From a virus, in the IMG/VR virus record IMGVR_UViG_3300030451_003358, positions 1 through 38,627 of that record: DNA of 38,627 nucleotides; one strand, 5' to 3'. The notes under the pieces were generated by a model. The model was not told the origin of the DNA and ran no database searches. It saw only the letters and a list, made by a program, of their open reading frames with translations. Numbering within the stretch: position 1 is the stretch's first letter; the number at the start of each line of letters is the position of its first letter. Positions 3,811-34,354 of this stretch are shown piece after piece. The position numbers and the translations under genes are program-made.

Positions 3811-5256
3811 GTGTATTCAGGCTTTTCAGGTCGGCAACGTGTAGGCAACGTCACGACGGTGGAAAGCCCCAACACGGCTTACGTCAACATGGAGCCGCAT
3901 TGGTTGCTGATTGAGGCGCTTTTGCAGGGCACTTACGGAATCAGAAAAGGGCATAGAAAATATCTCCCACAAGAGCCAAGAGAATTAGACGAGGCCTATG
4001 ACAACAGGCTGATGCGTTCAACGCTTGCGCCGTACTATGTCAGGCTTGAGCGGATGTTGGCGGGCATGTTGACCCGCAAGCCTGTGCGGCTTGAGGATGT
4101 CAGCGATGTTGTCACTGAGCAGCTGTTTGACGTTGATCTGCAGGGCAATGATCTAAACGTTTGGACCTACGAAACCGCACGCAAGTGCATTCGATATGGG
4201 CACGTTGGTGTTTTGGTTGATGCGCCAAAGGCAGGTGAGAACGGAAGGCCGTATTACTGCACTTTTACGCCACGCGACATCTTGGGGTGGCGGTCTGAAA
4301 TTAAAGATGGCAAGCAAGTATTGACGCAGTTGCGGTTAATGGAAGAAATCACCGTGCCTGATGGTCTCTACGGCGAGAAGCAAGTGCAGCAGGTGCGGGT
4401 GCTGACGCCTGGCGCTTATGAGATTCACCAAAAGGACAAGAAAGGCGATTTTGTTTTGGTTGATGAAGGCCGCACCAGCCTTAGCGAAATCCCGTTTGCT
4501 GTTGCTTATTCCAACCGCGTTGGTGTTCTTGAGTCACGGCCACCGTTGGCTGACATCGCTGAGCTGAACCTCAAGGCTTATCAGGTGCAATCTGATCTCG
4601 ACAATCAGTTGCACATTAGTGCTGTGCCGATGCTGGCAATCTATGGATTCCCGCAGTCAGCAGAAGAGATTAGCGCAGGTCCAGGAGAGGCGCTCAGCCT
4701 TCCTGAAACCGCACGGAGTGAATACATCGAACCAGGCGGCAACAGCTATGACGCGCAGTTCCGCAGACTTGATCAAATTGCTAATCAGATAAATGAACTA
4801 GGCTTGGCCGCTGTGCTGGGACAGAAGCTGAGCGCAGAGACTGCAGAAGCCAAGCGCATCGATCGCAGCCAAGGCGACAGCACGATGATGGTCATCGCTC
4901 AGCAGATGCAAGACCTAATTGATAACTGCTTGCAGTTTCACGCGGAATTTATGCAGCAGTCGCAAGCTGGCAGCAGTTTCATCAATCGTGACTTCTTGGC
5001 TACACGCCTGGAGCCGCAGGAGATTCAAGCCTTGTTGCAGCTTTACACCGCAGGCACCATCACACAGGAAACGCTGCTCAACCAGTTGTCTGCTGGAGAG
5101 GTGCTGGGAGATGAATTCGACGTAGAGGAGGAGATTGAGGCCACTCAAAACGGGGGCCTGATCGAAATGCAGCAACCTGAGCCGACGCCACCTGCCGCAG
5201 AAGAGGCCACAATGCCAGAAGCAGCGCCGGAGGCCGAAGATGAGTTGGCTGGATAA
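3811..5256 (+). CDS. Portal protein (DUF4055-like)
   Basis: This 481-residue protein follows the terminase, where the portal is expected. It begins at GTG 3811. The segment around residues 45-90 (YLPQEPRELDEAYDNRLMRS and LERMLAGMLTRKPVRL) is characteristic of the DUF4055 portal family. The C-terminal third has the long helix expected for the portal crown (IANQINELGLAAVLGQKLSA, AETAEAKRIDRSQGDSTMMV) and ends in an acidic, proline-rich tail. Portals form the dodecameric channel at one vertex of the capsid. The gene overlaps the next one by 17 bases. Confidence 0.85.
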   Translation: MYSGFSGRQRVGNVTTVESPNTAYVNMEPHWLLIEALLQGTYGIRKGHRKYLPQEPRELDEAYDNRLMRSTLAPYYVRLERMLAGMLTRKPVRLEDVSDVVTEQLFDVDLQGNDLNVWTYETARKCIRYGHVGVLVDAPKAGENGRPYYCTFTPRDILGWRSEIKDGKQVLTQLRLMEEITVPDGLYGEKQVQQVRVLTPGAYEIHQKDKKGDFVLVDEGRTSLSEIPFAVAYSNRVGVLESRPPLADIAELNLKAYQVQSDLDNQLHISAVPMLAIYGFPQSAEEISAGPGEALSLPETARSEYIEPGGNSYDAQFRRLDQIANQINELGLAAVLGQKLSAETAEAKRIDRSQGDSTMMVIAQQMQDLIDNCLQFHAEFMQQSQAGSSFINRDFLATRLEPQEIQALLQLYTAGTITQETLLNQLSAGEVLGDEFDVEEEIEATQNGGLIEMQQPEPTPPAAEEATMPEAAPEAEDELAG

Positions 5257-5524: not shown

Positions 5525-6666
5525 GCGAGCTTCGCGAGATATTCCGAAACGCGATTGATCTCAACCGCTATAGCAATAGTGTGTCGCGACGTTTGATCCG
5601 TGCATACAACGACGTTGTTTTGGATGCTGTTGATCAGCTTCGTGGGATTGATGAGCTTGCGTCGCCTGTCAAAGCTGCACGGCTTCGGTCGATCCTCGCG
5701 CAACTGAACGACTCGCTGCGCACTTGGTCTGGTGAGAGCATTGCCACGATGACTGAGGAGCTGCAGGGCCTTGCTGTTTTGCAATCGGAGTTTGCGGCTG
5801 AACAACTGCAGAAGGCGCTGCCCGCTGGTGCTGCTGCAACTGTGGGCACAGTAGAGATCAGCCCAGCTTTTGCGCAGGCGGTTGTCACAAGTCAGCCGAC
5901 GGTAGCCGGTGTGGTCAACCTCAGCGACAACTTGGCACGGATCGCCAGAAACACTGTTGCGTTCCAGTTGACCGTTGGCCAAGAAATGACACTTCCGAAT
6001 GGTCAAGTGATTGCTCAGGCCTTCAGCAACATGTCGGAAAGGCAGGCAGAGCTTTTTAGCCAAGCAATCCGAACGGGCTTGATTGAAGGCGAGTCTGTTC
6101 CGAGCATTGTCCGCAGGCTCAAAGGGCGGCTGACTAAGGAGCAGCGCGGATCGATCGACACGATCATTGCGGCAGGCGGTCAGGCAACCAGCATCCCGAA
6201 CAATCAGATCAGGGCCATCGTTCGCACAAGTGTAAATGAGGTTGCAAACGCTGCTGAGCGAATCTTTGCCGCTGAAAATCCTGAGTTGACCAAAAAATAT
6301 CGTTACACCGCAACGCTAGATAGCAGAACTACGGCAATTTGTCGGGCGCTAGACGGCAAGGTCTTCAAACATGAGCAAGGCCCATATCCGCCTCAGCACT
6401 TCAACTGCCGTTCGCGAAACATCAACATTCCAGTCGGGCTTGAGAAAGAGTTTGGGGAGGCTCGCGAAGATTACGGCGTATGGCTGAATGGTCAAAGTGA
6501 TGCGGTGAAACGTGACGCACTAGGACCAGGCCGTCTTGCAATGTGGGATGGACTGGTCAGAAAGTACGGCCCGTCTGATGCCATCCGTAAATTTGTAGCC
6601 AAGGATGGCTCAGAGCTAACCTTGAAGCAGTTACGCGAACGAGGCTATGGCACCTCTTCCCGCTAA
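5521..6666 (+). CDS. Head morphogenesis / minor capsid protein (SPP1 gp7, Mu gpF type)
   Basis: This 381-residue protein carries the C-terminal signature of the phage Mu F-like / SPP1 gp7 family: RTSVNEVANAAERIF (235-249), TLDSRTTAICRALDGK (265-280) and GPYPPQHFNCRSR (287-299). The conserved D267, R269, C274, H293 and C296 are present. The N-terminal two thirds are helical. Such proteins join the prohead with the portal and are needed for correct head assembly. The gene overlaps its upstream neighbour by four bases, and the last bases overlap a small gene in another frame. Confidence 0.85.
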   Translation: MSELREIFRNAIDLNRYSNSVSRRLIRAYNDVVLDAVDQLRGIDELASPVKAARLRSILAQLNDSLRTWSGESIATMTEELQGLAVLQSEFAAEQLQKALPAGAAATVGTVEISPAFAQAVVTSQPTVAGVVNLSDNLARIARNTVAFQLTVGQEMTLPNGQVIAQAFSNMSERQAELFSQAIRTGLIEGESVPSIVRRLKGRLTKEQRGSIDTIIAAGGQATSIPNNQIRAIVRTSVNEVANAAERIFAAENPELTKKYRYTATLDSRTTAICRALDGKVFKHEQGPYPPQHFNCRSRNINIPVGLEKEFGEAREDYGVWLNGQSDAVKRDALGPGRLAMWDGLVRKYGPSDAIRKFVAKDGSELTLKQLRERGYGTSSR

Positions 6667-6751
6667 GTACCAGTTCAAGGCTGAGGGCAAACCCAAGGCG
6701 ACGACCAAGAAGAAATCTGTTAAAAAGGAAGCACCTACGGAGGCTGACTGA
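6647..6751 (+). CDS. Tiny lysine-rich protein (34 aa)
   Basis: This short gene starts inside the end of the head-morphogenesis gene and overlaps the next gene by one base (TGATG). The product begins MAPLPAKYQFKAEG and ends in a lysine/alanine-rich tail (KATTKKKSVKKEAP). It is the first of five consecutive very small genes that are mostly strongly basic. It is supported by exact start-stop coupling on its downstream side. No function is known; binding to DNA or to acidic capsid parts is a guess. Confidence 0.55.
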   Translation: MAPLPAKYQFKAEGKPKATTKKKSVKKEAPTEAD

Positions 6752-8335: not shown

Positions 8336-8346
8336 GAGGATCTGTC

Positions 8347-9369
8347 ATGGCGACTCTTCGCTCTGACATCATCATTCCTGAGGTATTTACGCCTTACGTC
8401 ATTGAGCAAACCACTCAGCGTGATGCCTTTCTGGCTAGCGGTGTGGTGCAGCCCATGGCGGAGCTAAATGCTGCAGAGGGTGGTGGTGACTTCATCCAAG
8501 TGCCTTTCTACAAGGCCAACCTGTCAGGCGACTTCGAGCGTCTGACGGATAGCTCTTCTCTTACTCCCAGCAAAATCACCGCAGACAAGCAAATTGCTGC
8601 TGTGTTGCATCGCGGCAAAGCTTTTGAAAGCAGGGATCTCGCCGCACTTGCTGCCGGTTCTGACCCGATGGCCGCTATCGGCAACAAAGTTGCTGACTAC
8701 ATCGCCAACCAGCGTCAAAAGGATCTTCTGGCCTGTCTTGCTGGTGTGTTTGGTGCTGTTGGTGACACCAGCTCTGCTGCTTATGCAGGTCTAGCTGTGG
8801 ATGGCACCACTGGTGACACCCCGACTGATCTTGGCCCCCGTCAGATTGTTGTCGGCAAGTCTCTCTTGGGTGACCAAGGAGAAAAGTTGGCGGCCCTATG
8901 TGTGCACCCAAACGTTTATTATGACTTAATGGAGCGTCGTGCGATTGACTTCATCTACGACGACAACGGCATTGCTGACACCGCTGCAAGCCAGGGTTCA
9001 ACCGCACAAGCTTTTGGCGATGTGCGTGTTCCAACCTTCATGGGTATGCGTGTGATCGTGTCTGCTGATGTGCAGACCGCTGGCTCCGGTTCTTCTACCG
9101 AATACGCCAGCTACATGTTCACCCAAGGTGCCGTTGGTTCTGGCGAACAGCTGGGACTTCAGACGGAAACTGACCGTGACATCCTCGCCAAGAGTGATGC
9201 CATGTCAATCGATCTGCACTATGTGTATCACCCGATTGGCTCTAGGTTCAGCAGCGCGGTTTCAAATCCAGAGCGATCTGACCTTGAAACCGTAGGCAAC
9301 TGGACCAAGGTGTTCGAGACCAACAACATTGGTATCGTGCGCATTACTTCCACTTCTGGAATTGATTGA
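8347..9369 (+). CDS. Major capsid protein (HK97-fold type expected)
   Basis: This 340-residue protein follows the scaffold and has an excellent ribosome-binding site (GAGGA, seven bases from the ATG). It starts MATLRSDIIIPEVFTPYVIE, a start typical of a class of siphovirus coat proteins. A central N-to-C pattern (LHRGKAFESRDLAALAAGSD, ALCVHPNVYYDL, then a late IGSRFSSAVSNPE) fits the E-loop, spine and late beta segments of HK97-like shells. The protein would form the capsid lattice. The assignment rests on position, size and sequence style; no structure was computed. Confidence 0.85.
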   Translation: MATLRSDIIIPEVFTPYVIEQTTQRDAFLASGVVQPMAELNAAEGGGDFIQVPFYKANLSGDFERLTDSSSLTPSKITADKQIAAVLHRGKAFESRDLAALAAGSDPMAAIGNKVADYIANQRQKDLLACLAGVFGAVGDTSSAAYAGLAVDGTTGDTPTDLGPRQIVVGKSLLGDQGEKLAALCVHPNVYYDLMERRAIDFIYDDNGIADTAASQGSTAQAFGDVRVPTFMGMRVIVSADVQTAGSGSSTEYASYMFTQGAVGSGEQLGLQTETDRDILAKSDAMSIDLHYVYHPIGSRFSSAVSNPERSDLETVGNWTKVFETNNIGIVRITSTSGID

Positions 9370-27350: not shown

Positions 27351-27691
27351 TGGCTGTATCACCGGGCGTCTATAACGTTGAAATTCAGCGTCGCGCAGAC
27401 TGGAGCGTCATGCTGCAATTTAAAGACAGCACAAACAGCCCCATCAACTTGACGGGTTTTACCGTATATGCACAGGCTTGGGACGAATCTCGTTCTACCA
27501 AGCACGCAGACTTCGGGGTTGTTTATACAAACCGAGCCGACGGAAAAGTCACCATTAGTTTGACTGATACACAAACTGCAGCGTTTCCAAACGAGCTGCG
27601 GTACGACGTTTTGCTTGAAGATGGCAGTGGCATTCGGGAGTATTACTTGGAAGGTATAATTTTTGTAAGTCAGGGGTACACTGCGCCATGA
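27350..27691 (+). CDS. Conserved beta-sandwich phage protein (113 aa)
   Basis: The product starts [20 protein letters not shown] and has [20 protein letters not shown] and a late [16 protein letters not shown] recognise this pattern as a conserved protein in many marine phages, usually placed next to collagen-like or receptor-binding genes; an immunoglobulin-like or baseplate-type fold is plausible. It overlaps the collagen-like gene by four bases, which suggests the two products are made together and may interact. Confidence 0.6.
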
Positions 27692-28497
27692 CAACTGTTG
27701 TCGTTACCCAGACTGACACTACTGTCGTTGAGGTTACAACTGCTGGTCCGCAAGGCGCTGCAGGTGCTCAAGGTGCAACTGGACCTCAAGGACCACAAGG
27801 CGAGGGTAGCGCAACTGTTTCTATTGGAACAACAACGACAGGATCTGCAGGCAGTAGCGCGTCTGTTACGAATACAGGTTCAGCTACTGCAGCAGTTTTA
27901 AATTTCACTATCCCGGCTGGTGCAACTGGACCTGCAGGTGCAACCGGAGCAACTGGTCCTGCAGGAGCAACTGGTGCAACTGGTGCTCAAGGCCCTGCAG
28001 GAGCAACAGGCGCACAAGGTCCCGCTGGTCCAACTGGTGCTCAAGGACCGCAAGGGCCTGCAGGAGCAGATGGTAATGATGGCGCAACTGGAGCAACTGG
28101 AGCAACTGGAGCGACAGGTGCTACAGGACCTCAAGGTCCAGCAGGTGCAGATGGTGGAACGAATATTGTTGTAGACACCACACCTCAACTTGGCGGTGAT
28201 CTAGACATGAACTCCAAGTTCATCTCTAGCGGTGTTCTTGGCGTTAAGAACCAAGGCTCCCAGTCAGAGTTGCAGCTGTTTTGTGAATCCAGCAACGCAC
28301 ACTATGCAGCAATCAAAGCGCCTGCTCACTCTGACTTCAGCGGCAACATCACGTTTACGATGCCTGCCAACTACGGATCAGCAAACCAAGTGCTGACAAC
28401 CGATGGCTCTGGTGGAACGTCTTGGGCGGATGCTAGTGGTGGTGGTGGTGGTTTGAGTAGAGCGCAAACAACCGGAATCGCGCTAATCTTTAGCTAA
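27688..28497 (+). CDS. Collagen-like virion protein (269 aa)
   Basis: Residues 20-40 contain seven G-x-y triplets. After a beta segment ([20 protein letters not shown], then [11 protein letters not shown]) comes an uninterrupted run of 26 G-x-y triplets at about 78-156, mostly GAT, GPA, GAQ and GPQ. The C-terminal 110 residues ([20 protein letters not shown], then [12 protein letters not shown]) look like a trimerising head common after such stalks. It should form a trimeric fibre on the virion. Threonine in the y position is typical of bacterial and phage collagens, which lack hydroxyproline. Confidence 0.85.
27919..28155 (+). repeat. Nine-base-unit tandem repeats of the collagen stalk
   Basis: The DNA encodes 26 consecutive G-x-y triplets, with units such as GGAGCAACT and GGTGCAACT repeated in tandem. 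Unit number is likely to change by slippage, giving stalk-length variation. Apparent open frames on both strands here are by-products of the repeat. Confidence 0.8.
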
Positions 28498-30592: not shown

Positions 30593-30630
30593 GCCCCTTC
30601 CTGACCTCACACAGGGAGGGGCTTTTCTTT
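30593..30630 (+). terminator. Strong intrinsic terminator ending the late region
   Basis: GCCCCTTCCTG (30593-30603) pairs with CAGGGAGGGGC (30612-30622) as eleven pairs with one T-G wobble, around an eight-base loop. TTTTCTTT follows (30623-30630). This is the strongest intrinsic terminator I see in the window and closes the plus-strand structural genes. The next gene's ATG (30641) is only ten bases further. Confidence 0.85.
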
Positions 30631-30640
30631 GGTGATCACC

Positions 30641-30880
30641 ATGCAAAAGGTTTTTAACGTCCTTGGTTTGCTCGGCTTTCTGATGAGTGGAACGCTTGTT
30701 GGTCTGAGTATTGCTGCTTTTGCCCGCATCCCAGGATGGATTGATGATTACGCAGCGACCATCACTGATGACATCACTGGCACGGTGACTGAGATGATTC
30801 CAGGTCAAGTTGATGAGCTGATGCCTGAGATGCCAACGCTCCCAACAGAAACTGGCCCAGCAATCAAGTCACCATTTTAG
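30641..30880 (+). CDS. Small single-pass membrane protein (79 aa)
   Basis: The product starts MQKVFNVLGLLGFLMSGTLV, with one hydrophobic segment (about residues 5-28), then an acidic and proline-rich tail with repeated V/T/E-M-P patterns (QVDELMPEMPTLPTETGPAI). I recall similar cyanophage proteins of unknown role. A holin-like or virion-anchor role is possible but has no direct support. I take ATG 30641 over upstream GTG and TTG codons. The end overlaps the minus-strand gene by 17 bases, tail to tail. Confidence 0.6.
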   Translation: MQKVFNVLGLLGFLMSGTLVGLSIAAFARIPGWIDDYAATITDDITGTVTEMIPGQVDELMPEMPTLPTETGPAIKSPF

Positions 30881-31109
30881 TTTCAGCCTGCGGCTCTACT
30901 TGTGGAGCGTCCCAGTGCTTGAGCCATTCACGCAACGCTTGGCCTGTTGGCGTTGACTTAGGCCAGCGCACAAACTTGAGCAGCTTTTCTGGATCGGTAA
31001 ACAGCATCGAAGACTTGCCAGATCTGCAGACGTAAACGAGCGGCGGTCCTTCTCTGTGCTTGGTAGCTTCAATCCAAAGCTGACCTGCTGTAAACCGTTC
31101 TGACTTCAT
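30864..31109 (-). CDS. Conserved small protein of unknown function (81 aa)
   Basis: The product starts MKSERFTAGQLWIEATKHRE and has PPLVYVCRSGKSSMLFTDPE, KLLKFVRWPKSTPTGQALRE and WLKHWDAPQ. It reads as a well-folded small protein and recalls short cyanophage proteins that have the same F-x-x-P-E-x-L-L-x-F-x-R-W-P pattern. The frame is open further upstream to 31400, but that part is a low-complexity shadow of the plus-strand gene. Its ATG shares two bases with the ATG of that gene (CATG at 31107-31110). Confidence 0.6.
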   Translation of the reverse strand: MKSERFTAGQLWIEATKHREGPPLVYVCRSGKSSMLFTDPEKLLKFVRWPKSTPTGQALREWLKHWDAPQVEPQAETKMVT

Positions 31110-31632
31110 GGAGATCCGGGAAATTATTGTGCCTGAGATTAACGCCTTTATAGATCTGCCACAGGTAGCAATACCGCAAGCTCCTCCTGTCACGTTAGAG
31201 ATTGGCGTGCCAGTGATTGAGCTGCCGCACTTCAATCCAATGGATATGGAGCCTGAGGTGCAGCCGCCTGAAATAGTGTTGCCAAGACAAAAGCCTGCTG
31301 ATCCTCCAGCCCCAGAGCCAATACAAATCAGGCTTCCTAAGAAGAAACCACCAAAACAAGAAGCACCGCCAGCAATTCCAGAACCAACGGTTGAAGTCAA
31401 GACATTGCCTCAACGCATTATTGAAGCGGTCCCAACGATCCCGCAAGCGGTCAACACTGCAGGGACGTCAGCCATTGCCGTCTCAGCAGCCTTGGCAACT
31501 CCACTGCTGCTCAAGGCGATTAAGCCGACGATTAAGAAGTTGGCAAAAAAACTTCAACAGGCAATCGGTAAAAAAGTCAAAGTAGAGAGTGTCAGCGAGC
31601 GTCGGAAGTTTCAGAGGTCTTTACGGAAATAG
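31108..31632 (+). CDS. Proline-rich protein with a C-terminal membrane and basic segment (174 aa)
   Basis: The first 110 residues are acidic and proline-rich with repeated I-x-L-P-x / V-x-x-P patterns (PVTLEIGVPVIELPHFNPMD, EIVLPRQKPADPPAPEPIQI, then RLPKKKPPKQEAPPAIPEPT). A hydrophobic stretch (about 125-145, AGTSAIAVSAALATPLLLKA) and a basic tail follow. This looks like an extended rod with a membrane or virion anchor. The ATG at 31108 overlaps the opposing gene's start; GTG 31129 is an in-frame alternative. The end overlaps the minus-strand gene by 41 bases. Confidence 0.6.
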   Translation: MEIREIIVPEINAFIDLPQVAIPQAPPVTLEIGVPVIELPHFNPMDMEPEVQPPEIVLPRQKPADPPAPEPIQIRLPKKKPPKQEAPPAIPEPTVEVKTLPQRIIEAVPTIPQAVNTAGTSAIAVSAALATPLLLKAIKPTIKKLAKKLQQAIGKKVKVESVSERRKFQRSLRK

Positions 31633-32389
31633 AATGGGTGTGGGGGATTGGGTAGTGTGCCCGCACATCGCGGCACACCTTTTCATAAGGGCTGCCCTTA
31701 GCGAAGCGAATGCCCTTCATCATTAGCTCCCCACAGTGCTTAAGCCTGCTGATCTCAAAGTCCAACCTTTTGTTGGCCAGCAGCTGTTGTTGTAGTGCAA
31801 GCTGAGTGTCAACTGCCTCTTTGCATCTGCGCTGCAGGCCCTGGTCTAAGGGGATGGTTGCTTGTATAGACAAGCCCACATTCCAGTTGTGGTTGTCTTT
31901 TTGCCCGGTTCTTGTGTCTTTGTAAAATAATACGTCCCCCGGATTGTCTAAAATATTGTCTTCGTTCAAATCACTTAAATCATACACAGGGTCTGGGTAG
32001 CTGTATTCATACGGCAAGCCCCAGGACTTAGTGCGGTTGAGATATGGCGTAACAGTCAGCGTGGGACCTTGGCACTGAATGTTCCCGCCATAGGTGTTGG
32101 TGATTGCTGAGCCTTGCAATATCTGCACGGCGCTATTGCTCACTGACCCAGACGACGTGGCTGTAGGCGCAGCAGTTGCAGAAATGCCGCCTATGCCCTC
32201 AGCGTTTACAGGCGCAGTTGCAATTATTCCGAGAAGGAAGAAACCGTATCCGTAACGCTTGTTATGTCGGTCGTTCTTGTTATCGTCGTGACGTTTTGCA
32301 AGCCTGGTCCTTTCAGGCTTTCGACGAACTGAAACGTCTTGCCGGGTTTTACGATTGACCAGTTGGGTCGCTCTCCTAAAGAGGTCCAT
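31592..32389 (-). CDS. Exported protein of unknown function, fourth gene of the minus-strand cassette; start unclear
   Basis: From about 32254 the sequence reads as a secretion signal (GFFLLGIIATAPVNA) followed by GIGGISATAAPTATSSGSVS, NTYGGNIQCQGPTLTVTPYL, NEDNILDNPGDVLFYKDTRT, then a helical cysteine-containing end (RLDFEISRLKHCGELMMKGI). I recall this order from cyanophage proteins of unknown role. No ATG, GTG or TTG lies in frame between 32389 and the signal. ATG 32389 adds a long basic extension and overlaps the upstream gene by 166 bases. An ATT sits exactly where the coupled start should be (TAATT at 32222-32226). Confidence 0.65.
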   Translation of the reverse strand: MDLFRRATQLVNRKTRQDVSVRRKPERTRLAKRHDDNKNDRHNKRYGYGFFLLGIIATAPVNAEGIGGISATAAPTATSSGSVSNSAVQILQGSAITNTYGGNIQCQGPTLTVTPYLNRTKSWGLPYEYSYPDPVYDLSDLNEDNILDNPGDVLFYKDTRTGQKDNHNWNVGLSIQATIPLDQGLQRRCKEAVDTQLALQQQLLANKRLDFEISRLKHCGELMMKGIRFAKGSPYEKVCRDVRAHYPIPHTHSISVKTSETSDAR

Positions 32390-32613
32390 CCGTTGATCGT
32401 TGAGATTGAGACAGGGTTAATTGCAGAGTCTGGGGCAATATTTTGACCGCTAGCAGTATATTCAAAGCCTGTTGAATAATTTTCGCTGACAATCACCTCA
32501 GATACTCTGCTGGTGGTTTCTGTGTGGGATGTCATTGTGCCTTGCTTGAAGGCAGGTACGACAGGTGCAGCTGCAGCTGGGGCGGTCAATAGCAGCAGCA
32601 AAAACCAACGCAT
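32224..32613 (-). CDS. Exported protein of unknown function, third gene of the minus-strand cassette (129 aa)
   Basis: The product starts with a clear signal peptide (MRWFLLLLLTAPAAAA). The mature part begins PVVPAFKQGTMTSHTETTSR and continues VIVSENYSTGFEYTASGQNI, then FVESLKGPGLQNVTTITRTT and a final DTVSSFSE. I recognise this order from cyanophages, always unassigned. The threonine- and serine-rich beta pattern fits a secreted or envelope beta protein. It starts in the stop of the previous gene (TAATG) and overlaps the following gene's open frame. Confidence 0.7.
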   Translation of the reverse strand: MRWFLLLLLTAPAAAAPVVPAFKQGTMTSHTETTSRVSEVIVSENYSTGFEYTASGQNIAPDSAINPVSISTINGWTSLGERPNWSIVKPGKTFQFVESLKGPGLQNVTTITRTTDITSVTDTVSSFSE

Positions 32614-33110
32614 TAATCTCCGATCGTGATTGATGTGACCACCTGCCCCAGGGCCGTGGTGCCTGCCCCTCCTGCCGTTACACTTACAGCACCGCCTGAA
32701 TCTATGCTCCCTGCCAGACTGCCAGACACTCCGCCCGAAGTTGTCGTCACTTTCCCGAATGTCGGCAACGCTGGGACGACACCCGAAGTAACTGTTGTAG
32801 AAAGTACGCTGGGAGTGTTGTCGCCGCCTAAATACGCTTCACTGTACGAAAAGCTATCACCGGCAGTTGTGATAGAGAAAGCGCCGGGCGTGTAGCCAAG
32901 AGCAGTCCCAGGTGTAAGTGCTCCTAAAGCGGGGGTGGTGTCCAGGGTCACATTGGTGCCTGAAACTGTGAGTGTGCTTGGGACTCGCTCTGCGACTGAT
33001 CCTGCGCCGTCAACGGTCAGTGAAATGCTGGTTTGCACCTTATGGATGAGGTCCGCTTGAGCGGGCAGGCCTGCAAGTGTCGCAGCCAACACCAGAAGTG
33101 TGCGCTTCAT
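32613..33110 (-). CDS. Exported protein of unknown function, second gene of the minus-strand cassette (165 aa)
   Basis: The product has a signal peptide (MKRTLLVLAATLAGLPAQAD with likely cleavage after A-Q-A) followed by LIHKVQTSISLTVDGAGSV and a long glycine/serine/threonine beta region (GDSFSYSEAYLGGDNTPSVL, then SVTAGGAGTTALGQVVTSIT). The LIHKV start after the signal is a recurring feature I recall in cyanophages. Its ATG overlaps the stop of the membrane-protein gene (ATGA) and its stop overlaps the next ATG, so the cassette is translationally coupled. Confidence 0.7.
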   Translation of the reverse strand: MKRTLLVLAATLAGLPAQADLIHKVQTSISLTVDGAGSVAERVPSTLTVSGTNVTLDTTPALGALTPGTALGYTPGAFSITTAGDSFSYSEAYLGGDNTPSVLSTTVTSGVVPALPTFGKVTTTSGGVSGSLAGSIDSGGAVSVTAGGAGTTALGQVVTSITIGD

Positions 33111-33388
33111 TTGATGCCAGCCTTGGAATCCTTGTTATCAATACTAACGCCGTTCTCCTCCTTCTTTTTCTTGTTGAGCTTGCCTAGAGCTGGCGTGTAA
33201 GTGGCTGCAGTCCCAGTAAGCAGGCTGGCCGGGAAAGTGGGATCGACAGCTTGCGAGAAGATGCCAAGGTAGTTGGCAGTCAGAATCCCCATCGACCACA
33301 ACAGGATTGTGACGCGGACAACATCGCCTAACCAAGAATGGGATTGATCGTCCTGTTCCTCTGCCTTGGACTGCGGTGTTTCTGCCAT
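33107..33388 (-). CDS. Small membrane protein, first gene of the minus-strand cassette (93 aa)
   Basis: The product has an acidic N terminus (MAETPQSKAEEQDDQSHSWL), one clear membrane segment (VVRVTILLWSMGILTANYLG, about 24-44) and a second weakly hydrophobic part (FPASLLTGTAATYTPALG), then a basic tail. Size and layout suit a holin-like or envelope protein. It is encoded opposite the peptidase gene from a shared 42-base divergent region. The conserved SHSWLGDVVR segment is something I recall in other cyanophage proteins of this kind. Confidence 0.65.
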   Translation of the reverse strand: MAETPQSKAEEQDDQSHSWLGDVVRVTILLWSMGILTANYLGIFSQAVDPTFPASLLTGTAATYTPALGKLNKKKKEENGVSIDNKDSKAGIK

Positions 33389-33430: not shown

Positions 33431-33604
33431 ATGCTTCTAATCCTCAAGCCCATCTTGATGAGCGCCGCCAAATCACGGGCGTTCAAGGAATTGATTGTGG
33501 CGATGCTAGAACGCATCGTCGCTGAAACTGACAACGACCTAGATGACTTGGCGATCAGCCATCTCAAGGATTTGCTGTTGCCTGACACAAGGATTGAAAA
33601 GTAA
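33431..33604 (+). CDS. Small conserved cyanophage-type protein (57 aa)
   Basis: The product MLLILKPILMSAAKSRAFKE, LIVAMLERIVAETDNDLDDL, then AISHLKDLLLP is a helical protein with a hydrophobic N terminus and a D-N-D-L-D-D-L motif that I recall in cyanophage genomes. It starts a rightward pair with the cysteine peptidase gene three bases after it. A minus-strand frame over the same bases is less convincing. The function is unknown; small size and position suggest helping the peptidase or lysis. Confidence 0.6.
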   Translation: MLLILKPILMSAAKSRAFKELIVAMLERIVAETDNDLDDLAISHLKDLLLPDTRIEK

Positions 33605-33607
33605 GCG

Positions 33608-34354
33608 GTGTCTGGCATCATCCAGCTGACCTTACTGCTTCTCGCCATGGCACTTGGGTTGCTGCCCTTTTTTCAATTTTTCCGTGGTACGCCCCATCAG
33701 CTGGCTGCAATTAAACAGCTTGAGGAGTCAATGCCAGCGGAACTATTGGAGGAACACGAAGCTGATTGGTTTCAAGCGTGGAAGGAGAGTGGATATGACC
33801 AGCAGATCTACATGCCTTACTTCAGACAACTCGACAACAAGACTGGAACGGGATACCGCGAGTGTTTCAGTTCAGCAGCTGCGATGGTGGCAGCGTATTA
33901 CAAGAAGGTCAAAACAGATGATGAGTACAACGAGATCCGCGCTCAGTTCGGTGATACGACATCCGTAGAGGCTCAACTGGCAGCGTTACGCAGTCTGGGT
34001 TTACAGGCTGAGTTTCGAAAAGATGGTGACGCTGACATGGTGGAGCTGGAAATCGAAAATGGTCGTCCGGTTTTGGCTGGATATTTGTCTGCAGGCAACA
34101 TGCTTCGTGGTGAACCACCGATGTGCAACGGCTTGGGTTGCGGACACTGGCTGGTCATCAGTGGTTTTGCAGGAAAGAACAGTAACGACCCGGAATGGAT
34201 CGTCCAAGACCCTCGTGGCTACCCAGAGATGGAAAAGGGTGGGCACAGCAATCCGCACCTGGGACGTAACGTTCGAGTGAGACAAGCTGCGTTTTATCAA
34301 CGTTGGCAAGCCGAAGGCCCAGGTACGGGTTGGGTGATTTTGGTGAATGACTGA
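33608..34354 (+). CDS. Membrane-anchored C39-type cysteine peptidase, lysis candidate (248 aa)
   Basis: The gene starts at GTG 33608. Residues 3-25 are a hydrophobic anchor, a possible signal-arrest helix. The rest has the peptidase C39-like (papain-fold) triad: C86 in GTGYRECFSSAAAMVAAYYK, H180 in CGHWLVISGF and D201 in IVQDPRGYP. Related enzymes in phages act as peptidoglycan or peptide-cutting proteins. As the only soluble-domain hydrolase outside the tail tip, it is the best endolysin candidate. A processing protease for the opposite exported proteins is an alternative. Confidence 0.8.
   Translation: MSGIIQLTLLLLAMALGLLPFFQFFRGTPHQLAAIKQLEESMPAELLEEHEADWFQAWKESGYDQQIYMPYFRQLDNKTGTGYRECFSSAAAMVAAYYKKVKTDDEYNEIRAQFGDTTSVEAQLAALRSLGLQAEFRKDGDADMVELEIENGRPVLAGYLSAGNMLRGEPPMCNGLGCGHWLVISGFAGKNSNDPEWIVQDPRGYPEMEKGGHSNPHLGRNVRVRQAAFYQRWQAEGPGTGWVILVND

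Follow-up and report, generated by a model that had tools for sequence, protein, structure and literature searches.

Phages of marine picocyanobacteria kill abundant ocean photosynthesisers, and for the step in which they break the host envelope we know of no gene. Spanins were not found by Kongari et al. (PMC6139136) in many Prochlorococcus and Synechococcus phages, an open question on which the gene cassette described here bears. Most of its families have been listed together before. Sullivan et al. 2010 (PMC3037559) named T4-GC 218, 219, 234, 235 and 237 as a cluster of hypothetical genes with a 'plasmid stability' protein; that paper treated T4-like phages alone, assigned no function and left T4-GC 236 off its list. 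Notes in GenBank records map the families as g1 = 218, phrog_605 = 219, phrog_570 = 234, g4 = 235, g3 = 236, g2 = 237 and phrog_568 = 414. These are the same genes as in the cluster of that paper, so the cassette as such is not new, and the term 'undescribed', given to it in an earlier sequence-only reading, has to be dropped. In the literature searched, no function was found reported for any of these families, nor were the spread of the cassette to other morphotypes, its late motifs, its lysis-slot position, the C39 exclusion and the g4 overlap found described. New here are the late-promoter motifs of the myoviral form, the position of the T7-like form in the lysis slot, the near-exclusion with C39 endolysins and the start of g4 inside g3.

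Gene content and layouts of the cassette

The window, i.e. the whole stretch of DNA analysed (38,627 nucleotides), is a virus record of IMG/VR whose structural module is of a lambda-like siphoviral type, comprising TerL, portal, major head protein, tape measure and J-like tail protein; a collagen-like Gly-X-Y repeat protein is encoded after the tail genes at 27688-28497. On the minus strand four open reading frames were confirmed, g1 (33388-33107), g2 (33110-32613), g3 (32613-32224) and g4 (32389-31592), which form a tight operon of one membrane protein and three exported proteins, as the sequence-only reading had proposed. Its junctions of ATGA for g1/g2 and TAATG for g2/g3 were found as claimed, and its fourth frame is revised to g4 starting at 32389, the third junction being a 166-nt out-of-frame overlap with g3. 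When each protein was searched against viral protein databases, all four matched phage families without assigned function, namely phrog_721/DUF6450 (g1), phrog_564 (g2), phrog_650/DUF6322 (g3) and phrog_848 (g4).

What had been taken for a four-gene unit is a convergent module of six to nine genes. On the plus strand the Pro-rich phrog_570 (31108-31632) converges tail-to-tail on g4 with a 41-bp 3' overlap; the same strand also carries phrog_568 (30641-30880, alternative start TTG at 30629) and a cyanophage OMP-like protein (PF24653, 30217-30564), an accessory gene present in many siphovirus-type and some other loci. No match to phrog_605 was found in the window. On the other side, a membrane-anchored peptidase had been placed directly across a 42-base divergent gap; the gene at that place is a 57-aa open reading frame, sm (33431-33604, plus strand, phrog_2738), a family that also follows g4 in T7-like podophages. 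The C39-like peptidase begins at 33608 and runs to 34354 on the plus strand, and like sm it diverges from g1. It has an N-terminal hydrophobic segment, is a homologue of annotated cyanophage endolysins/lysozymes, and matches phrog_10051 (E 2.6e-56) as well as Peptidase_C39_2 above cutoff.

Signal-peptide-like N-termini, scored with our own heuristic and not with SignalP, are present family-wide in unique relatives of g2 (145/145), g3 (216/226) and g4 (165/166), in line with the secretion signals proposed earlier for these three proteins. Lipobox-like motifs, sought by pattern and not with a lipoprotein predictor, occur in only 6/145, 5/226 and 1/166 of the same relatives and are conserved in none of the families. 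At family level g1 (about 90 aa) shows two hydrophobic segments and charged ends by hydropathy, and may be holin-like in size and topology; it matched no holin family in PHROGs, Pfam or NCBIfam. Ser, Thr and Gly are abundant in g2, and g4 carries a basic N-terminal extension of 50-odd residues ahead of its signal peptide and four invariant cysteines in its mature part. In phrog_570 a single hydrophobic segment near the C-terminus is followed by a basic tail, and only from this tail would a membrane orientation follow. An N-terminal hydrophobic segment is seen in each of phrog_568 and phrog_605, from hydropathy and not from a dedicated topology tool. The label 'plasmid stability' on the phrog_568 family (75-90 aa, one hydrophobic segment) has been built upon by papers, e.g. 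PMC9602691, and has no visible basis here. No enzyme motif and no enzyme family match were found for the cassette core.

AlphaFold2 models g3 as a beta protein with strands of 24 and 25 residues (pLDDT 79, pTM 0.40) and g4 as a beta region plus a 43-residue helix (pLDDT 65, pTM 0.37). Foldseek searches of PDB gave nothing at E <= 0.001 (E values all exceeding 0.03 for g3 and 0.5 for g4), and PDB sequence searches with g3 and g4 profiles gave nothing significant; against viral models, g3 matched only four at E <= 0.001, cyanophage proteins where the organism is named. Many ring and pore proteins stand in the PDB lists of both proteins, all of them non-significant and at most suggestive, since long beta hairpins readily match pore stems. 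Membership of g3 or g4 among beta-pore-forming or outer-membrane ring proteins is thus not supported, there being no significant similarity in fold or sequence.

A tblastn search of annotated phage genomes with g4 returned 427-436 records, every one from a cyanophage or a marine environmental phage. All of g1, g2, g3, g4, 570 and 568 are present in 171 of 242 loci, nearly always in the order g2 g3 g4 > < 570 568, g1 standing ahead of g2 or on the far side of 568. Loci were collected with g4 queries, so g4 is in all of them by construction; the co-occurrence and order of the other families are not so determined, and the order is far beyond chance. It recurs in nearly every siphovirus- or myovirus-type locus that is long enough, in agreement with the sequence-only reading, which gave the same order for cyanophages, and homologues stay with shared neighbours across loci and are not scattered singly.

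With more families and 80 T7-like loci added, the layouts can be grouped generally into three. The siphoviral layout has the endolysin gene and sm diverging from g1 g2 g3 g4 > < 570 568 omp. The myoviral layout is g2 g3 g4 > < 570 (605) 568 g1, with phrog_605 present in many myoviruses but lacking in some myovirus-type loci. The T7-like layout, 570 g1 g3 g4 sm, has all genes in the same direction and is without g2. The core common to the sipho-, myo- and podovirus forms, all from viruses of marine picocyanobacteria, is 570, g1, g3 and g4, to which g2, 568, 605, sm, a C39 endolysin or the OMP-like protein are added according to phage type. The cassette is thus common to three unrelated kinds of cyanobacterial virus with three tail morphotypes. 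A genome scan with the g4 alignment gave 16 loci whose titles and scattered taxonomy read as phage contigs in MAGs or single-cell assemblies.

Within the window clade (L004-L083), g1 and g2 fall into two allele groups (identities of about 44% vs 62-90% for g1 and 46% vs 65% for g2) beside uniformly similar g3 and g4, which suggests allele exchange inside the cassette. Single genomes depart from the layouts in other ways. A plastocyanin gene (petE, 8337-8669) is inserted between g1 and phrog_568 in Sf-CH3, g4 and sm form one continuous open reading frame in P-GSP1 (4440-5156), and in S-RIP1 sm is placed ahead of 570, while g4 is followed by a 77-aa protein (6449-6682) of phrog_12220 with an N-terminal hydrophobic segment and a weak match to phrog_462 'lipoprotein'.

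Genome position and candidate roles

In T7 the holin gene lies between the tail fibre gene and TerS. The core follows the tail-fibre region and precedes TerL in NATL1A-7, P-SSP2, S-RIP1 and P-GSP1, the gene directly downstream of it in NATL1A-7 being TerS (phrog_891), and in the podophages S-CBP2, S-CBP1 and DSL-LC07 the tail-fibre/TerS slot is filled by a lysozyme/C39 endolysin. After nrdA-nrdB-RusA, the myovirus Sf-CH3 has the cassette, and at this place S-PM2 and S-CREM2 have C39 plus lysin or lysozyme genes. Many myoviruses have the cassette among replication genes, between regA and hsp20/gp43, and in the window clade it adjoins the C39 endolysin gene.

The distribution of the two was compared in about 30 chosen isolate genomes. 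No C39 endolysin match was found in 13 genomes with the cassette (including P-SSP7), and 15 with C39 are without an intact cassette; S-ShM2 has the cassette and a C39 domain inside a very large protein. Fisher's test gives a p-value of 1.8e-6, rising to 4.4e-5 when cassette and C39 are both credited to the window clade and S-ShM2; these values overstate the evidence, since the genomes are related and were chosen among search hits. Weak DUF6450-like matches are present in the C39 carriers S-CREM2 and S-N03; as S-CREM2 is without the cassette, its virion proteome says nothing on cassette proteins. In S-CAM7, one of the 15 genomes with C39, a weak g4-like stretch with two in-frame stops (KU686212.1, 31560-31802) is perhaps what is left of a former cassette.

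When the 120 nt ahead of each gene were scanned in myovirus-like loci, the T4-type late motif NATAAATA was present before g2 in 38/87 and before g1 in 52/88, shuffles giving expectations of 4.7 and 2.6. Before the internal genes it is at or below expectation (570 0/104, 605 0/58, 568 2/99 and g3 0/103, against a background of 0.7% per 46-nt stretch). Both outer ends of the myoviral convergent pair therefore look like late promoters, and the myoviral cassette would be expressed late. The motif is not used by the window clade or by T7-like phages, as expected for other phage types.

We favour, at a probability of roughly one half, the reading that the cassette is a late envelope-breaching (lysis) module of marine cyanophages standing in for spanins. 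This reading draws on the synteny across three morphotypes, the myoviral late motifs, the slots in which relatives carry endolysins, the near mutual exclusion of cassette and free C39 endolysin in the chosen isolates, the single reading frame of g4 and sm in P-GSP1 and the place of the window clade cassette beside a C39 endolysin. Five cassette carriers, Syn9, S-SSM5, P-SSM2, S-ShM2 and P-SSP7, are on the spanin-less list of PMC6139136. In such a module g1 would act holin-like in the inner membrane, 570 and 568 would put Pro-rich or helical segments into the periplasm, and the exported g3 and g4 (with g2) would assemble at the outer layers, probably disulfide-stabilised, and open them, the proteins together doing the job of spanins. 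The replication-gene location in many myoviruses may speak against lysis, and late promoters would also fit virion proteins. Neither a g3 or g4 match nor a convincing C39 match was found in Syn5 and P60, and S-PM2 is spanin-less and without the cassette, hence cyanophage lysis in general does not depend on the module. Tentatively, and as a possibility rather than an expectation, the module could be a third route of outer-membrane disruption in all three tail types, in which, in place of spanins, the exported, beta-stranded g3 and g4 (with g2) would form a conduit or pore stabilised by disulfides and coupled to a two-segment, holin-like g1 and to 570, a Pro-rich membrane protein anchored by its C-terminus, all made late as one exchangeable module. 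A conserved, apparently late and exchangeable module at lysis loci would be a concrete candidate, and the lysis reading offers a working hypothesis for six or more large families whose present label is unknown or 'plasmid stability'.

The sequence-only reading had named lysis, exclusion and virion surface as forms of a joint envelope role; an envelope role fits and lysis is the best supported of the three, none of which is proven. It is unlikely that the cassette serves host-envelope remodelling or superinfection exclusion, with exported g2-g4 coating or altering the envelope to block further adsorption and having no part in lysis. All products are predicted to be exported or membrane-bound, the divergent g1 and g2 alleles beside well conserved g3 and g4 look as if under diversifying pressure, and the module is found at different genome places, all of which would suit exclusion; however, the late-promoter motifs are late for such a role, which also leaves the lysis-locus position and the near-exclusion with the C39 endolysin unexplained. 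Quite improbable is a set of virion surface or tail-associated proteins that carry chance-like export signals and serve, at entry, to adsorb or to penetrate the envelope. The late motifs, the place of the core after the tail-fibre genes in T7-like phages and the best (non-significant) fold match of g3, a phage tail protein, agree with it, but the signal-peptide-like N-termini of g2-g4 would take these proteins away from the compartment where virions assemble; 570, 568, 605 and g1, being membrane proteins, would by analogy have no virion role; and a tail part would not be expected to recur as the same module in three unrelated tail types.

The start of g4 within g3

The g4 gene starts within g3, in the -1 frame and about 165 nt from the end of g3. 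In the window the dual-coding overlap spans 32224-32389 on the minus strand (166 nt, the end of g3 and the start of g4), and the ATG at 32389-32387 is the only one ahead of the g4 signal peptide. Among 234 loci with g3 and g4, 213 have a g4 ATG at 163, 166 or 169 nt before the stop codon of g3, and 190 of these 213 have no other ATG, GTG or TTG near that stop. In 164 unique sequences chosen for having this ATG, the codon before a conserved Trp is GGA, GCA, TCA, ACA, AAA, CAA, AGA or TTA; its last base is always A though the amino acid varies, i.e. ATGG is kept. Third-base diversity at the ATG is zero in two clades, and only about 10% of synonymous reshuffles would leave the g4 frame open across the overlap. 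The Shine-Dalgarno-like signal ahead of the ATG is weak.

The g4 extension is basic, with a mean net charge of +8, and its sequence is weakly constrained. Third-base diversity of g3 in the overlap is 0.45 vs 0.50 in the window clade (p 0.16) and 0.45 vs 0.55 in the myovirus-like set (p 0.005), a weak drop, from which it appears that conservation favours the ATG and the open frame over the peptide; the idea that the g4 N-extension is under strong purifying selection was rejected on the same ground. An ordinary g4 start at the g3 stop is found in S37-C6-type podophages, and T7-like relatives have their nearest upstream g4 starts elsewhere (-64, -109, -190, -346). In one podophage group of T7-like loci (L290-L325) the open g4 frame reaches back to 346 nt before the g3 stop, so that most of g3 could be dual-coding. 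The GenBank records of Sf-CH3 and S-PRM1 leave g4 unannotated, apparently because it overlaps both g3 and the converging gene.

A -1 ribosomal frameshift from g3, giving a g3-g4 fusion with no internal ATG used, would suit both the lack of a start codon beside the g4 signal peptide in most loci and the varied nearest upstream starts of T7-like relatives (-64 to -346). It is very hard to credit beside an ATG at -163 to -169 in 213/234 loci, which eight different upstream codons, each with A as its last base before TGG, bring about and which has zero third-base diversity in two clades, and it was rejected as the origin of g4 because no slippery heptamer is conserved (at most 9/164 sequences).

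Comparison with known systems

Spanins (lambda Rz/Rz1; T1 gp11) share with the cassette exported or membrane proteins thought to act late on the outer envelope, overlapping reading frames and a protein with an N-terminal hydrophobic segment (568 in the cassette). They differ in that the cassette has more proteins and its core membrane protein, 570, has its hydrophobic segment on the C-terminal side; as no lipobox or lipoprotein is conserved in g2-g4, no o-spanin or u-spanin is present and the module is not a spanin by definition. Class II-like phage holins with two transmembrane domains resemble g1 in size, in its two segments and charged ends, and in the T7-like lysis slot, whereas g1 matches no holin family. 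C39-type endolysin loci, e.g. in S-CBP2, S-CBS1 and S-PM2, occupy the same genome slots as the cassette does in relatives; they represent an enzyme family, the cassette core is without enzyme motif, and the window has both side by side. In gene content the cassette agrees with the T4-GC 218-237 cluster of Sullivan et al., in which, as in the window, homologues of 234, 235, 237 and 218 are clustered with a 'plasmid stability' protein. The window carries a siphoviral form of that cluster, which differs from it in having g1 before g2, in being without 605, and in being flanked by an endolysin gene and an OMP-like gene.
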